Source: a virus
DNA: 30,120 nt
Reading direction: 5' to 3' (one strand)
Virus record (IMG/VR): IMGVR_UViG_3300021379_000029
Coordinates: 1 to 30,120 of that record
The position numbers were made by a program, and so were the translations under genes. Below the pieces are notes generated by a model that saw only the letters and a list, made by a program, of their open reading frames with translations, did no database searches and was not told where the DNA came from. Numbering within the stretch: position 1 is the first letter of the stretch; each line of letters starts with the position of its first letter. Positions 8,428 through 14,228 of the stretch are shown here, piece by piece.

Positions 8428-8633
8428 GCAAATACATTGGTCGAGTTGTAACTACTGCGCAGAACAACAAGCAGTTGACTGTCACTGGCGATGTGAACTT
8501 TGACGGTGTGCTTAATAACGACGATAGCATTGACGCGCCTGTAACAATCGCATCAGGTCGTAATGCAATGGTGATTGGTCCTGTAACTGTAAATGCAGCT
8601 ATCACGATTAACGGAACCTTTACGGTGGTATAA
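8424..8633 (+). CDS. Small fibre-tip-like protein with GPVTV module
   Basis: A 69-residue protein starting in an ATGA overlap. Its C-terminal half (residues about 38-69) reads PVTIASGRNAMVIGPVTVNA and then ITINGTFTVV, a beta-turn module seen at the C-termini of many phage fibres. The same module closes the gene at 10616-11086 (NAMASGPVTVDTGVTLTV). The small size suggests a detached tip or clip domain that assembles with another fibre. It ends in a 1-nt overlap with the next gene. Confidence 0.7.
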   Translation: MSKYIGRVVTTAQNNKQLTVTGDVNFDGVLNNDDSIDAPVTIASGRNAMVIGPVTVNAAITINGTFTVV

Positions 8634-9196
8634 TGGCTAGTGAATTAACAGTACAAACGCTTAAAGGTCCACTGTCAGGTCCGAATGCTAATAAGATACT
8701 GATAGCAGATGGTCACAGTATCGAGGGCGTTGGTGGTGTTTTGCAGGTTGTTAGTGCAAAATTAACATCAGCTCTAACAATCAGCACAACGACAGAAACA
8801 GATACAGGTTTACAGTGTTCGATAACGCCGACATCAACAAGCAGTAAAATATTAATTCTTGCACAAATTAATGTTAGTAGTGGTAGCCCATCGTTTGGCG
8901 AACTAAACTTAACCCGTGGCAATACTGCAATTTATCAAGGCGATGCTTCGACAAACAGACAAAGCGCATCCGCAATGTTTTACACTTATATAGCAAGTAA
9001 CTCTGGTGTAATTATAAGCTACCCAATAAACTACATGGACAGTCCCGCAACGACTTCTGCGACAACTTACAAAATCAGAGCAAGCGCAGTGTCGTCTGGT
9101 TCAGTAATGATCAACAAATCATACCGTGATAGTGCATCTACTGATTATGACCACAGAGTGCCATCATCTATAACCCTAATGGAGATTGCAGGATGA
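8633..9196 (+). CDS. Fibre/appendage protein, paralogue set A, member 1
   Basis: A 187-residue protein, first of three consecutive paralogues. It has an N-terminal segment ending GGVLQVVSAKLTS, followed by the shared core CSITPTSTSSKILILAQINV. It ends ITLMEIAG. The core is a beta-strand pair with a hydrophobic KIL step. A variable middle (residues about 90-170) holds the differences among the paralogues. Such families are common as receptor-contact or decoration proteins in marine phages. The gene ends in ATGA overlap with member 2, and the end codons double as its ribosome binding site. Confidence 0.75.
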   Translation: MASELTVQTLKGPLSGPNANKILIADGHSIEGVGGVLQVVSAKLTSALTISTTTETDTGLQCSITPTSTSSKILILAQINVSSGSPSFGELNLTRGNTAIYQGDASTNRQSASAMFYTYIASNSGVIISYPINYMDSPATTSATTYKIRASAVSSGSVMINKSYRDSASTDYDHRVPSSITLMEIAG

Positions 9197-9198
9197 CG
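9181..9198 (+). repeat. Fibre junction repeat B, copy 1
   Basis: GGAGATTGCAGGATGACG encodes the C-terminal EIAG-stop of one gene and supplies the Shine-Dalgarno sequence and ATG of the next. Copies occur at 9669-9686 and, between unrelated genes, at 12637-12654. Confidence 0.6.
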
Positions 9199-9684
9199 AG
9201 TACACTCTACGTTGATAATCTTCAGCCTAACTTGGGTAGCAGAGTTGAGATACCTAGTCTGAAGCCGATCGCTGGGTCTGTGGTGCAGGTCGTGCAAGTG
9301 GATGATGCAGAGTTTAGCACTCGGTTTACAACAACATCTTCTAGTTATGTATCATCGGGCTATGACCTTGTAATTACACCTACAAGTACGAGCAGCAAAA
9401 TATTAATAACATGTAACTTTTCGGTTCACTCTACTTCAGGCTATGCGTATGGGCTTATTGCTCGCAACGGCACTCAGTTGGCTAACACTCAGTTTGCTTT
9501 TGGCGGCGGCGGGCAACCTTGGGGTATGGCTGGATCGACATTCTTAGACGAGCCAAACTCAACCTCGGCGGTCACATATACTTTGTATGGCTTCACCAAC
9601 AGTGGCACTGCATACTATGGATGGAACTCCTCGACAACTAACAATAACTTTTGTTATTTTATTGCACAGGAGATCGCACAATGA
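9193..9684 (+). CDS. Fibre/appendage protein, paralogue set A, member 2
   Basis: A 163-residue protein. The N-terminus is TSTLYVDNLQ, the STLxVxxI-type leader found in several neighbours. VVQVVQVDDAE, then YDLVITPTSTSSKILITCNF, matches the core of members 1 and 3. It ends YFIAQEIAQ. The middle contains a glycine-rich loop (FAFGGGGQPWGMAG) and aromatic strands not shared with the others. It starts within the upstream stop (ATGA). A variable surface on a fixed scaffold is the likely design (inference). Confidence 0.75.
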   Translation: MTSTLYVDNLQPNLGSRVEIPSLKPIAGSVVQVVQVDDAEFSTRFTTTSSSYVSSGYDLVITPTSTSSKILITCNFSVHSTSGYAYGLIARNGTQLANTQFAFGGGGQPWGMAGSTFLDEPNSTSAVTYTLYGFTNSGTAYYGWNSSTTNNNFCYFIAQEIAQ

Positions 9685-9686
9685 CC
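9669..9686 (+). repeat. Fibre junction repeat B, copy 2
   Basis: GGAGATCGCACAATGACC encodes EIAQ-stop of paralogue 2 and the Shine-Dalgarno and ATG of paralogue 3. It matches copy 1 (9181) and copy 3 (12637) with few changes. Confidence 0.6.
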
Positions 9687-10208
9687 AGCATAATAAAAGT
9701 CGATGAAATCCAGAAAACAGACGGTTCTAGCTTTGACTTTGGAAAGGTGTTGCAGGTAGAGCAGAAAGTGATGACATCTACAGCCAGTGTTTCATCAACA
9801 TCTTTTACAGAAATAGCAGGATTGACAACATCAATCACGCCATCAAGCGCAACTAGTAAAATACTGGTTGACGTAAACATGAATGTAAGTGCCTACGCAC
9901 ATTATGATATAAAACTGCAAGCTGACGGAACAGATATTTTAATTGGGGATGCAGCTGGTTCAAGAATAAGATCAACGTATCATGGTTATTTAGACACTAC
10001 CTACAATGGGTCTTATAACCAAATACCTGTAAGTATAAAATTCTTACATAGTCCGAATACTACTTCTGCTGTAACTTACAGACTTGTCACGGCATCACCA
10101 TACGGTTCATCATATACTATTACAGTAAATCGTACATTCTATGATACTGATGCTGCGTACACGGGTAGAACAGCATCTACTGTGACACTTACAGAAATCG
10201 CTGGCTAA
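9681..10208 (+). CDS. Fibre/appendage protein, paralogue set A, member 3
   Basis: A 175-residue protein. The ATG at 9681 overlaps the upstream stop and has AGGAG 8 nt upstream; an in-frame TTG at 9651 would add ten residues from inside the previous gene and is unlikely. The leader TSIIKVDEIQ precedes FGKVLQVEQKVMTST, then LTTSITPSSATSKILVDVNM, the paralogous core. It ends VTLTEIAG like member 1. The middle carries DIKLQADGTDILIGDAAG, and the SVKFLHSPNTTSAVTYR-like region resembles MDSPATTSATTYK of member 1, so members 1 and 3 are closest. Confidence 0.75.
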   Translation: MTSIIKVDEIQKTDGSSFDFGKVLQVEQKVMTSTASVSSTSFTEIAGLTTSITPSSATSKILVDVNMNVSAYAHYDIKLQADGTDILIGDAAGSRIRSTYHGYLDTTYNGSYNQIPVSIKFLHSPNTTSAVTYRLVTASPYGSSYTITVNRTFYDTDAAYTGRTASTVTLTEIAG

Positions 10209-10222
10209 AGGAGGCCAACACA

Positions 10223-10606
10223 ATGACAACAATAGCAAACGCATTAAGCGAACTAGGCGTCACAGAGTGGGTACTCCGTGGCGAGCCAACAACGGAAGCG
10301 GAGTTCAACGAGATGTTCCGCAAGGTCACTGGCAGTGATGCCAATGGCACAGCAATCGAAAGCAGCGATCCTTCTGACTGGGGTACAACATGGGCAGCGG
10401 TATCAGCTAAGAAGGACGAGCTTGTAGCTGCACAGCCTTTGAAAGAATTGCGTGAAGAACGTAATCGCTTAATCGCCGAGACAGACTGGTGGGCATCATC
10501 AGACCTAACAATGACCGCAGAGCAGACAGCATATCGTCAGGCGTTGCGTGACATCACAAATAGCTATTCATCGCTTGATGATGTAGTATGGCCTACAAAA
10601 CCATAA
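10223..10606 (+). CDS. Tail fibre assembly chaperone-like protein
   Basis: A 127-residue protein with a strong ribosome binding site, AAAGGAGG, upstream of ATG 10223. The C-terminal half has LREERNRLIAETDWWASSD, then YRQALRDITN and VVWPTKP. This arrangement (R..RN.L...DW...YRQALRD...WP.KP) is the hallmark of the phage tail assembly chaperone family related to T4 gp38-like and Mu-like fibre chaperones. It would help fold or attach one of the adjacent fibres. Length is normal. It sits between the paralogue set A and the next fibre gene. Confidence 0.8.
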   Translation: MTTIANALSELGVTEWVLRGEPTTEAEFNEMFRKVTGSDANGTAIESSDPSDWGTTWAAVSAKKDELVAAQPLKELREERNRLIAETDWWASSDLTMTAEQTAYRQALRDITNSYSSLDDVVWPTKP

Positions 10607-10615
10607 GGACATGAA

Positions 10616-11086
10616 ATGTCAGGATACATCGGCAGCATCCCAGTTCCACAGGCTACGCAGGTAAGCCAGAAGTTCGAAGCAACTGCGGGGCAGACAAGTT
10701 TTACCACAGTAGGGTTTACCTCTGGTTTTGTTGTTGTTTGGCTAAATGGGGTCAAGCTGGTTCCGTCTGTTGATTACAGCGACACTGATGGCGTCAATAT
10801 TGTTCTCACGAGTGGGGCCGCTGCTGGTGACACACTTGAAATACTTGCCTTTGAGACATTCCAAGTAGCCAATGTTGGTGGCGGTGGATCGTTCTTCAAG
10901 GGTGACAACGGGGATGTCGGTGATGCGAACACAGGACGTGGAGACATCTTCCGTGTGCATAACCAGACACTAACGGCAGACGTTACGATTGATGCAACTG
11001 AGAATGCAATGGCATCAGGTCCAGTAACCGTTGACACAGGCGTTACCTTGACCGTCACAACTGGGGGGAACTTGGCAATTGTCTGA
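10616..11086 (+). CDS. Tail fibre protein with NGVKL and GPVTV modules
   Basis: A 156-residue protein whose N-terminus, SGYIGSIPVPQATQ followed by FEATAGQTSFTTVGFTSGF, VVWLNGVKLVPSVDY and GDTLEILAF, is a well-known marine phage fibre module. A Gly-rich linker leads to FRVHNQTLTADVTIDATENA and a terminal GPVTVDTGVTLTV. The latter is shared with the 69-residue protein at 8424. AAGGAC lies just upstream of ATG 10616. The last 8 nt overlap the next gene, which uses a TTG start. Confidence 0.8.
   Translation: MSGYIGSIPVPQATQVSQKFEATAGQTSFTTVGFTSGFVVVWLNGVKLVPSVDYSDTDGVNIVLTSGAAAGDTLEILAFETFQVANVGGGGSFFKGDNGDVGDANTGRGDIFRVHNQTLTADVTIDATENAMASGPVTVDTGVTLTVTTGGNLAIV
11063..11070 (+). promoter_or_regulatory. 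Ribosome binding site for a UUG start
   Basis: GGGGGGAA lies 8 nt before TTG 11079. No ATG or GTG occurs in that frame for a long way downstream, and the translated N-terminus matches that of its paralogues. The site therefore supports UUG as the true start. Confidence 0.6.
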
Positions 11087-11480
11087 GATTAGAGCAACAA
11101 CAATTAGTGATAGTGCTGGTACTGGGCCGATTACGCTGACGGGGCAAAGTGCTGCGAAGGCTTGGTGTAACTGGAATGGAACTGGGACGGCTGCGATTAG
11201 AGACAGTTTTAATACTACATCAATAACCGACAACGGCATAGGCGACTATACGTTTACCATAACTAATAACCTAAGTGATACAAACTATTCTGTCACTACT
11301 TGCTCTCAATACTACCAAGGCGGCGCAACTGCGTCTGCTGCCTTAATGGGCTTAGAAATAAAACACACTACAACGGCAATGCAAGCTGGAAACATTACTT
11401 TTTGGCATAGGTATGGTCCAAGCACAACTTTGTATGATTGCACAACTGGATGCTTTACCATTAACGGAGACTTAGCATGA
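11079..11480 (+). CDS. Fibre/appendage protein, paralogue set B, member 1 (UUG start)
   Basis: A 133-residue protein, first of three tandem paralogues. The leader SEIRATTIS corresponds to STLKVTNIQ and STLNVSNIT of the next two. The core is SAAKAWCNWNGTGTAAIRDS, then FNTTSITDNGIGDYTFTITN, and it ends INGDLA. The start codon is TTG, supported by GGGGGGAA upstream and by the paralogue alignment. Four Cys residues in the second half may pair. Such KAWxxF...S(I/F)TDNGTG proteins are frequent in marine phage fibre regions. Confidence 0.72.
   Translation: MSEIRATTISDSAGTGPITLTGQSAAKAWCNWNGTGTAAIRDSFNTTSITDNGIGDYTFTITNNLSDTNYSVTTCSQYYQGGATASAALMGLEIKHTTTAMQAGNITFWHRYGPSTTLYDCTTGCFTINGDLA
11466..11480 (+). 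repeat. Fibre junction repeat A, copy 1
   Basis: GGAGACTTAGCATGA encodes GDLA-stop and, in the other frame, the Shine-Dalgarno and overlapping ATG of the next gene. Exact copy at 11870-11884 and one-base variant at 12235-12249. Confidence 0.75.
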
Positions 11481-11884
11481 GTACTCTAAAGGTCACAAAT
11501 ATTCAGGCCACAGGCGAAACAGCTAGTCGTGCAGTCTCAGGGGTTGCGGCGGCTTGGTATCACCTAGATAATGATTATACGGCATCACTTAGTCCTAATG
11601 GTGGAAATGTAAGTATTCAGGATAGTTTCAATACTTCTAGCATTACTGATAATGGAACTGGAAATTATTCCATGGCGTGGACAAACTCTTTTGATAATGC
11701 CCTTTATTCTAATTCTTTACTAGGTCAATATCTCAGTGACAGTGCTGCTTATGAATACGGATTTATGGCTAGTATTATTAATGCACCAACAGCAAGTGGG
11801 TACAGCTTTACTTGGCGATATTATAGTAACTCTTATTACGACCCATCTAAGTTTTGGGCAGTAGCGCACGGAGACTTAGCATGA
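11477..11884 (+). CDS. Fibre/appendage protein, paralogue set B, member 2
   Basis: A 135-residue protein. Leader STLKVTNIQATGE, core AAAWYHLDNDYTAS, then SIQDSFNTSSITDNGTGNYS, and end WAVAHGDLA. Here KAW is AAW and the Cys of members 1 and 3 is replaced by Tyr. The C-terminal half is aromatic (FTWRYYSNSYYDPSKFW). The gene is visibly AT-rich. It starts by ATGA overlap within the repeated junction that also ends it. Confidence 0.75.
   Translation: MSTLKVTNIQATGETASRAVSGVAAAWYHLDNDYTASLSPNGGNVSIQDSFNTSSITDNGTGNYSMAWTNSFDNALYSNSLLGQYLSDSAAYEYGFMASIINAPTASGYSFTWRYYSNSYYDPSKFWAVAHGDLA
11870..11884 (+). repeat. Fibre junction repeat A, copy 2
   Basis: GGAGACTTAGCATGA, identical over 15 nt to the copy at 11466. 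It encodes the end of paralogue 2 and the Shine-Dalgarno and start of paralogue 3. Confidence 0.75.
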
Positions 11885-12249
11885 GTACACTAAACGTTTC
11901 CAACATCACCGATGGCACAGATACAGTAGAGACTAGCTATGTCCTGAATGGGTCGGCTAAGGCTTGGTGTTTGAATGAAACACTTGTAGATGCTTCTGGT
12001 TGGACAAATGAAAGTTTTAATGTTTCATCGTTTACCGATAATGGAACAGGTAAGCTTTTTATAGATATGACTACTTCTTTTGCTTCAACAAATTATGCTT
12101 GTATTGGTTGTGCAAGTACAAATTCATCTAATGATAATATCTTAACAAAGGTTTCTGGATTTACTGCAAGTAGAGATCATGTTTATATTTATGACAACGC
12201 TCTTGTAGACGGCCCAGTTTCATGGCTGGCATTAGGAGACCTAGCATGA
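11881..12249 (+). CDS. Fibre/appendage protein, paralogue set B, member 3
   Basis: A 122-residue protein starting at ATG 11881; an upstream in-frame ATG at 11854 lies inside member 2 and is less likely. The leader is STLNVSNITDGTDTVETSYV, the core GSAKAWCLNE, then SFNVSSFTDNGTGKL, and the end SWLALGDLA. The middle region (TSFASTNYACIGCASTNSSN) aligns loosely with NNLSDTNYSVTTCS of member 1, so members 1 and 3 share Cys positions. It is AT-rich like member 2. Confidence 0.75.
   Translation: MSTLNVSNITDGTDTVETSYVLNGSAKAWCLNETLVDASGWTNESFNVSSFTDNGTGKLFIDMTTSFASTNYACIGCASTNSSNDNILTKVSGFTASRDHVYIYDNALVDGPVSWLALGDLA
12235..12249 (+). repeat. Fibre junction repeat A, copy 3
   Basis: GGAGACCTAGCATGA differs from the other copies by one silent base. 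It links paralogue 3 to an unrelated downstream gene. Confidence 0.75.
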
Positions 12250-13000: not shown

Positions 13001-14029
13001 ATGAGCAAGGCACGTCAGTTAGCAGACTTAGGTAACGTCTATGACGATGGTGCCTTGTCACACCGCCGCTTGACGTATAACGGCGCAATGAATGTTTGGC
13101 AGCGTGGCACTTCGGCTGACACTGCGGCATCAGGCGATTATATGTGTGACCGTTGGAGAATACAACACAACGGAACAGATGGAAATGTAGACTGGGACCA
13201 AGAAACATCTAGCACACCAGACGGCTTTGCGTATGCACTTAAAGTTTCAATGGATGCTTCGGAAACGTCTTTGGATGCGGGGGACTACGTTTACATTACT
13301 CAGCGATTTGAAGGGCAAGACTTACAGCATTTAGAAAAAGGTACTGCTAATGCAAAAAAAGTAACTTTGTCTTTTTGGGTTAAATCATCGGTAGCTTCAA
13401 CGTACACTGCATCACTTACAGATGATGACAATACAAGAATAATTGGAAAATCTTACACTATTTCTACGGCAAACACATGGGAAAAGAAAGTAATTGTTTT
13501 TGATGGAGATACATCAGGTGCATTAGATAACGATGCAAACCGTAGTTTAGACGTAGACTTTTGGATTGACGCAGGGACAACATTTACAAGCGGCACATTT
13601 TCCACGGTATGGGCATCTGAAGTTAACGCAGATCGTGTCTACGACACCACAGGCTGGCTAGAAAGCTCAACCCCTACGTTCTACATCACAGGCGTCCAGC
13701 TAGAAGTAGGCGACACAGCCACCCCCTTCGAGCATCGGTCATACGGAGATGAACTGGCGAGGTGCCAGAGGTATTTTTATTCAAGAAGATTTGATAGCCG
13801 TGGTTATAATGGACATGGTGGTAACATGACTTACTATATGGATATGTCTTGGCCTACCACAATGAGGGCTGCTCCATCTGCTACTCTTACATCTAGCACA
13901 GCAATCACTAATAGTAACGGCAGTAGTATAGACAAGTTGTCCGCAGATTATTGTATTTACAGCGCTCAAATAACCGTCACAGGAAACTGGACAAGAGCTG
14001 ATTATTACAACTTGGATGCGGAGCTTTAA
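13001..14029 (+). CDS. Receptor-binding tail fibre/adhesin (QLEVG hinge)
   Basis: A 342-residue protein with GGAG upstream of ATG 13001. Residues 26-36 are TYNGAMNVWQR, the typical opening of a large phage adhesin family. A carbohydrate-binding-like jelly roll follows (DRWRI, YITQRFEGQDLQHLEKGT, VTLSFWVKSS, about residues 50-215). ITGVQLEVGDTATPFEHRSY and GDELARCQRYFYSRR (about 230-262) form the conserved hinge of this family, after which the C-terminal 80 residues are variable and probably the receptor-contact tip. The DNA around the hinge is GC-rich compared with both flanks. This is the best candidate host-range determinant. Confidence 0.85.
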   Translation: MSKARQLADLGNVYDDGALSHRRLTYNGAMNVWQRGTSADTAASGDYMCDRWRIQHNGTDGNVDWDQETSSTPDGFAYALKVSMDASETSLDAGDYVYITQRFEGQDLQHLEKGTANAKKVTLSFWVKSSVASTYTASLTDDDNTRIIGKSYTISTANTWEKKVIVFDGDTSGALDNDANRSLDVDFWIDAGTTFTSGTFSTVWASEVNADRVYDTTGWLESSTPTFYITGVQLEVGDTATPFEHRSYGDELARCQRYFYSRRFDSRGYNGHGGNMTYYMDMSWPTTMRAAPSATLTSSTAITNSNGSSIDKLSADYCIYSAQITVTGNWTRADYYNLDAEL

Positions 14030-14030
14030 A

Positions 14031-14228
14031 ATGGAAGCCATGAATATCACATCAGCACAATATAGACATAGTAGGTCTGGAGATGAAATTGTAGAAGAAA
14101 ATTCTACGATCATTGCTTCAATTGATGGAGTAGAAATGACAGTTCCAGTATCAGAAGCCAACCGCCACTACGCAGAGATCATGCGTCAGGTTGAGGCTGG
14201 CACACTAACCATACAGGATGCAGAATGA
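14031..14228 (+). CDS. Small fibre-associated protein
   Basis: A 65-residue protein. ATG 14031 has GGAG at 14020-14023 with a 7-nt spacer; ATG 14016 is in frame but inside the fibre gene. The C-terminal half is IDGVEMTVPVSEANRHYAEI, then MRQVEAGTLTIQDAE. This pattern (VP...N..Y..I...V..G.LTI..A) is frequent in tiny proteins following adhesin genes in marine phages and may act as their chaperone or attachment clip (inference). Confidence 0.7.
   Translation: MEAMNITSAQYRHSRSGDEIVEENSTIIASIDGVEMTVPVSEANRHYAEIMRQVEAGTLTIQDAE

Follow-up and report, generated by a model that had tools for sequence, protein, structure and literature searches.

The stretch of DNA described here, referred to below as the window, is a 30,120-base virus contig whose portal protein has, among the phage records searched, its nearest match in Octadecabacter Antarctic DB virus 2 (47% identity). 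It carries a tail-fibre gene followed by a small open reading frame (ORF), and the segments of both are listed in Table 1. The product of the fibre gene is matched by the profile phrog_4492, tail fiber protein, over residues 19–342 (E 1.8e-60).

Table 1. Features of the fibre gene and of the ORF that follows it, in window coordinates.
Feature	Position	Strand	Description	Basis
Tail-fibre gene	13001..14029	+	342 aa, divided into a stub, a jelly-roll body, a hinge, and a tip	
N-terminal DNA island	13001..13114	+	residues 1–38; second exchange point	codons, haplotype sharing, change points
Body module	13115..13670	+	AT-rich middle part, without DNA-level conservation	GC3, codon divergence, haplotypes
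Hinge	13685..13777	+	~93 bp; probable left homology arm	DNA identity, codon consensus, break points, model
Variable tip domain	13778..14026	+	83 aa; exchanged	entropy, tip-swap pairs
Small ORF	14031..14228	+	65 aa; putative partner gene of the tip	ORF near-constant 3′ of fibre genes
Right arm	14157..14226	+	70 bp, 3′ part of the small ORF; probable right homology arm	identity, codon consensus, right ends of exchanges

In the AlphaFold2 model of the fibre (46 family members; mean pLDDT 85, pTM 0.83), the last strand of the jelly-roll body comprises residues 226–236 and is followed by a helix (248–256) and by the strands of the tip, which run from residue 259 to 339. The hinge is thus predicted to consist of the final strand of the body plus a linker helix, placed at the border between the body and tip domains. 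The tip is modelled with lower confidence (pLDDT of 58–86 in 10-residue blocks). Structures of CBM4 carbohydrate-binding modules are among the best fold matches of the body, and most of the length of the protein resembles in its fold phage tail fibres in BFVD. The predicted model has the jelly-roll body and separate tip domain that mark modular receptor-binding proteins with a CBM4-like body, and the annotation, fold, position, and variability of the tip suggest that it would bind the host receptor. A search with the tip of the window gene gave a single weak relative and no donor.

The proteins encoded by 162 of 198 fibre genes, among the matches listed, end with AEL, most commonly coded by GCG GAG TTA (14015–14029 here). 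The last codons (GAT GCG GAG TTA) are also biased; they were discounted as a further arm, since the GGAG just 5′ of the next start resembles a ribosome-binding site, and it probably doubles as that of the next ORF. An ORF of at least 40 aa starts no more than 70 nt after 191 of the 198 fibre genes (among the matches listed). The ORF that follows the fibre gene of Melnitz is annotated as a tail assembly chaperone, and one might guess at a similar role for the small ORF of the window, the profile matches of which were weak and gave no confirmation of a chaperone.

Other groups of ORFs are present elsewhere in the window. Three successive ORFs within 8633–10208 (8633, 9193, and 9681) are mutually paralogous (28–36% identity, E 1e-8 to 1e-23), with low GC3 of about 0.3 in 8633 and 9681, and are probably another tandem set of fibre parts. 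The members of a second trio of paralogous small ORFs (11079–12249, 33–39% identity), which start with MSTLKV or similar, are GC-richer in their first third and AT-rich in the remainder, as in the alternation found in the fibre gene. The ORF at 10223–10606 matches 388 bp of another locus (L188) at 82% identity; its homologue there lies directly 5′ of a hinge-bearing fibre gene, whereas in the window it is ~2.4 kb away, so that the order of genes around the fibres appears to be shuffled.

Base composition and DNA-level conservation of the hinge

The comparisons are based on a sample of relatives, among the matches listed, comprising at least 255 fetched loci (L numbers) plus the window. They yielded at least 241 distinct hinge-bearing ORFs, at least 218 of them with a body and a complete tip; identical and contained ORFs were dropped, some contigs having been fetched repeatedly. 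Relatives with an upstream identity of at least 0.8 were excluded from the codon scan and from the analyses of haplotypes, exact runs, downstream ORFs, and flanking GC, and those with at least 0.9 from the codon-usage test of GC3. Searching by means of the hinge biases protein conservation and not third bases, and entropy was calculated in a set of 49 ORFs collected without hinge peptides.

The original prediction described a GC-rich hinge within an AT-rich fibre gene, and its figures are reproduced here. The G+C content is 60.0% at 13681–13740, 31.7% at 13321–13380, and 40.0% at 13801–13860, with a window mean of 48.0%; among all 60-base segments of the window, these are at the 95.7th, 0.6th, and 10th percentiles, respectively. 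The longer region 13630–13775 has 55.5% (92.5th percentile). Within the window, the AT-rich 13321–13380 is the rarer extreme, and the hinge taken by itself stands out only moderately. GC3, calculated per 20 codons, is 0.50–0.65 in 13001–13120, 0.15–0.45 in 13241–13600, 0.5–0.6 in 13601–13780, and 0.25–0.45 in the tip, thus alternating twice between high and low along the gene and falling to 0.15 in the body.

In the family, the GC peak of the hinge is a common trait and not a product of chance. In 182 of 199 relatives, among the matches listed, GC3 of the hinge is higher than the codon usage of the respective gene would give for these amino acids (median 0.457 vs 0.275 expected), which excludes amino-acid composition as the cause of the peak. 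Two control blocks of this test had undefined medians because of missing data; one of the two, residues 19–53, showed an excess in 162 of 199 relatives (among the matches listed), since the N-terminal island falls there. GC3 is also higher than in the flanking genes in 151 of 186 loci for the hinge, in 36 for the body, and in 37 for the tip (among the matches listed). Across loci, GC3 of the hinge tracks flanking GC (r 0.79), which argues that the arms are not shared freely across all phages and leaves a hinge pool freely common to all of them unsupported.

The hinge had also been proposed to be the most conserved part of the family and the tip to be variable. Both statements hold for the 49 ORFs, in which the mean entropy is 1.35 in the hinge vs 1.47–2.07 upstream and 2.93 in the tip (2.9–3.6 for the tip across the entropy analyses). 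Conservation of the hinge extends beyond the protein to DNA, with 85–95% identity to many loci that have unrelated flanks. Its codons are position-specific: CTA accounts for 51% at L234 (background 10%), GCC for 65% at A240 (10%), and AGG for 69% at R254 (16%), and GTC is favoured at V232 and GTA at V236. Along the gene, codon consensus is found at residues 1–38, at 225–259, and in the last few codons, with a mean divergence of 0.20–0.24 vs 0.035–0.09 elsewhere. A similar island occupies the last ~25 codons of the small ORF, where the consensus starts at residue 40.

Sharing of haplotypes was compared with permutations in which third bases were shuffled only between sequences matched for codon box and GC3 quintile. 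Identity of at least 80% at four-fold sites of the hinge is found in 346 of 19,360 pairs in which neither the bodies nor the tips are related (among the matches listed) vs a permutation mean of 110 (maximum 162), and identity of 90% in 106 pairs vs 13.5. Whole hinge haplotypes are thus common to otherwise unrelated genes. Residues 10–40 are shared in 83 pairs vs 15 by permutation, and two body blocks show no excess in the 19,360 pairs (47 vs 45.5 and 25 vs 26). Exact runs of at least 23 nt, looked for in the 19,360 distant pairs among the matches listed, are present in 941 pairs for the hinge, in 423 for the gene start, in 0–51 for each body block, and in none for two tip blocks; 170 of 198 genes (among the matches listed) have at least one hinge partner with such a run. 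Averaged over all distant pairs, four-fold identity differs only slightly (0.395 in the hinge vs 0.352 upstream), and the signal of sharing in the hinge sits in the tail of recent sharing.

The islands of the window gene are shared in the same manner. Its nearest relative (L002) has an identity of 0.77 upstream, 0.95 in the hinge, and 0.33 in the tip, which is unrelated; identical four-fold sites number 15 of 16 in the hinge vs 44 of 70 upstream. Two genes with unrelated bodies and tips, L071 and L188, share with it the start, hinge, and right-arm islands: 13001–13059 is 90% identical to L071, the hinge is 94.6% and 93.4% identical, respectively, and the right arm 95.7% and 95.2%, with 80–96% in many loci.

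Break points and exchanged segments

When 23,653 gene pairs, among the matches listed, were scanned for change points without supervision, 151 proved to be mosaic, with one strongly similar and one dissimilar side. The change point falls at residues 19–51 in 132 of them and in the hinge, at residues 226–262, in 19; none of the 151 has it between or beyond these two regions (among the matches listed). The scan was run with minimum segments of 45, 60, and 90 nt, the figures quoted being those of the 60-nt run; an earlier scan with a minimum of 120 nt had pinned the start-proximal change points to that limit. Counted from the list of the 120-nt scan, the 19 pairs with a break in the hinge represent 13 unconnected gene groups.

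Exchange is seen in both directions, with similar upstream parts joined to different tips (L074/L079, L178/L210, L012/L014, the group of L044/L045/L048/L050, and others) and similar tips joined to different upstream parts (L098/L116, L121/L221, L167/L190, L163/L184, L170/L239, L085/L129, and L189/L210). In L098/L116, identity is 1.00 in the tip and 0.47 upstream. Among pairs aligned one by one, which were hand-picked and not sampled, L210 is nearly identical to L178 until 21 nt before the end of the hinge, resembles L189 from 5 nt before that end, and resembles L178 again in the ORF 3′ of the fibre gene; it is evidently a chimera of an L178-like gene with an L189-like tip. In swap pairs, synonymous differences set in already within the hinge, over codons that specify identical residues, as predicted for a crossover within the hinge. 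In pairs with the same tip, the inferred change point tends to be placed at the hinge's left boundary, since the hinge travels with the tip. Of 13 such pairs, two (L217/L251 and L244/L185) had change points close to the end of the gene and were discounted; the upstream part is truncated in L251 and appears to be so in L185.

The same pattern is observed between complete genomes of isolates. RB11-B and S-B43 have identities of 0.98 upstream, 0.96 in the hinge, and 0.45 in the tip. In turn, the corresponding values are 0.48, 0.74, and 0.97 for S-B05/RN05-S, 0.53, 0.82, and 0.99 for RN05-S/RB11-B, and 0.55, 0.76, and 0.98 for S-B28/7B11-B. Two fibre genes within RB11-B share hinge DNA at 0.87, with 0.53 upstream and 0.48 in the tip, which indicates that exchange within one genome is also possible. 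The genomes of the Synechococcus phages RN05-S and RB11-B (L265 and L266) contain 4 or 5 hinge-bearing fibre genes in ~20 kb, several of them with a small ORF after the gene; these sets are a possible internal stock of tips.

The right ends of exchanges were located in 13 hand-picked pairs, a small ORF being defined for 11. The end of the exchanged tract, or the point at which the two sequences become similar again, lies in the right island in 9 of the 11 (in one case 8 nt before it) and at the fibre stop codon in the other two. The exchanged unit thus consists of the hinge and the tip and usually reaches into the next small gene.

Divergence among relatives is not uniform along the gene: for swaps in either direction, break points are concentrated in the hinge, and isolates show this as well. 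The proposal that homologous recombination at the hinge swaps tips is supported by these sequence comparisons, including the change points that an alignment of relatives was expected to place at the hinge. It is modified in that the unit is larger than the tip and in that another exchange point lies at the gene start. Since its hinge is shared with L002, and its three islands with L071 and L188, despite unrelated tips, the window gene has itself participated in this exchange.

Two contigs (L049 and L060) stop, at their 3′ ends, exactly at the end of the hinge. A population containing more than one kind of tip would produce such breaks on assembly, and they could serve for finding tip variation. 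In a hinge scan of genome_contigs, the hinge was rare in cellular genomes, with 8 relatives (L257–L264) confirmed of 90 candidate stretches, the closest in a Roseovarius metagenome assembly; with these counts, prophages were rejected as a main reservoir.

Proposed mechanism of tip exchange and alternative explanations

Very probably, the GC-rich hinge is a DNA homology arm for the exchange of tips among the fibre genes of many aquatic phages. GC mosaicism alone is no proof of this, and the break points together with the sharing of synonymous sites are decisive. Two fibre genes would meet, either in two co-infecting phages or within one genome, and homologous recombination in the hinge, requiring a phage or host recombinase, would join the stub and body of one gene to the tip of the other. 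A second crossover, most often in the ~70 bp island of the next small ORF, would close the cassette, with the tip and the front of the small partner gene replaced together and the attachment end of the fibre left undisturbed. The third island, at the gene start, would allow body modules to be exchanged too. New tips may alter the receptor and host range, and their exchange probably lets phages change the host to which they attach.

A broader reading, in which several aquatic phage families keep the three short coding islands (gene start, hinge, and end of the small ORF) alike as DNA partly as recombination arms, with body and tip as separate cassettes of a shared gene pool, is possible but rather doubtful. 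Besides exchange, selection on DNA or RNA may help to keep the DNA alike and could be a source of position-specific codons, a possibility that the permutation test weakens.

It is improbable that a functional nucleic-acid element (a translation pause, an RNA structure, an internal start, or a protein-binding site) fixes the codons of the hinge, with recombination as a by-product. In favour of such an element, codon choice is strongly position-specific (CTA at L234 or AGG at R254, for example), and the 3′-terminal GCG GAG codons do resemble a ribosome-binding site for the next ORF. However, entire haplotypes are shared and not the consensus alone, similar islands that are also break points exist at two other places, and in-frame start codons are not enriched after the hinge; an internal translation start was rejected, ATG, GTG, and TTG being rare in frame among the 12 codons with which the tip begins in 198 genes (among the matches listed).

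Less probable still, and refuted as a full explanation, is constraint at the level of the protein only, under which the last strand and linker helix are conserved, G+C follows the amino acids, and tips merely evolve fast. The hinge is indeed the most conserved protein segment, at the domain border of the model, and its pair-averaged four-fold identity is barely raised. Against these features stand the GC3 excess that persists after correction for amino acids and codon usage, haplotype sharing at three times the permutation mean, and identical tips on unrelated bodies, as in L098/L116; such constraint would still contribute.

Random illegitimate recombination, with selection retaining only joins at the domain border, would account for the agreement of break points with the body–tip border of the model, but it is very unlikely, since donor hinge DNA replaces the hinge of the recipient at synonymous sites, haplotypes are shared in the hinge and not in the body, and the right end is inside another gene in 9 of the 11 picked cases. 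Assembly chimeras, in which metagenome assemblers fused different genomes via the conserved hinge, are scarcely credible: L049 and L060 stop at the hinge as contigs do when an assembler meets alternatives, but the same swaps between complete isolate genomes refute this origin in general, joined hinges often differ from each other, and similarity on the far side resumes at the same place in different pairs.

The preferred reading, with the hinge as a homology arm, bears on the question of why DNA that favours recombination persists at module borders, whether for the sake of recombining or only through protein constraint. Here, synonymous sites and break points jointly speak for recombination as a force that may have shaped the border.

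Comparison with known systems

It is already known that phages can swap receptor-binding parts by way of conserved DNA. For T-even phages, Tetart et al. in 1998 reportedly described swapping of this kind at the locus of the distal tail fibre, with motifs that are said to lie inside the gene 37/38 adhesin region. In the system described here, one arm is a strand–helix linker, and the other lies in a small downstream ORF. Diversity-generating retroelements, in turn, have template and variable repeats, adenine-directed changes, and a reverse transcriptase; their pattern is one of point changes, whereas the fibre tips are replaced by unrelated sequence. As in exchange of the T-even and coliphage tailspike type, the same upstream part occurs with different tips and the same tip with different upstream parts, and break points are concentrated in a conserved DNA segment.

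According to the accessible text of PMC10408124, DNA motifs of 44, 95, and 20 nt are located before and after the receptor-binding domain of tailspikes in six lytic coliphage genera, and its authors suggest that they are recombination hotspots. The class of protein and the host are different, and the downstream motif is described in that text as noncoding, a predicted terminator, whereas the fibre arms consist of coding sequence, the right one within the gene that follows, and contain mapped break points. The available part of PMC3945230 reports that Rad52-like recombinases of temperate phages need no more than short, imperfectly matching borders to generate mosaics, puts the minimal length for pairing at 23–27 bp for Red-beta and 31–34 bp for RecA, and includes two test regions that span side tail fibre genes; it concerns temperate coliphages and defective prophages, unlike the mostly uncultured aquatic phages considered here. 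In the accessible portion of PMC10684548, recently emerged mosaicism is found in tail fibres and spikes, some of it across families; this is a protein-level survey of domain shuffling, and shared DNA arms do not appear in that portion. Pelagimyophages, which are marine, have a hypervariable region that includes tail fibres, the host recognition cluster (PMC7029224); it is treated in the available text in terms of whole-island variation and gradual divergence, and that text contains no hinge break points.

A text search of the literature for the hinge peptide found no paper, and no description of these arms was recognised in the literature searched, most subscription journals being outside its scope. 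What appears to be new is that the arms are coding, that the right one sits in the next gene, that there is a third arm where the fibre gene starts, and that aquatic phages share them widely. These features turn the general idea of tip swapping into joints recognisable from the sequences of uncultured aquatic phages, as a left arm, a tip, a partner gene, and a right arm. Joints marked in this way would allow tips to be catalogued from metagenomes and linked to hosts, and natural rates of exchange to be measured.
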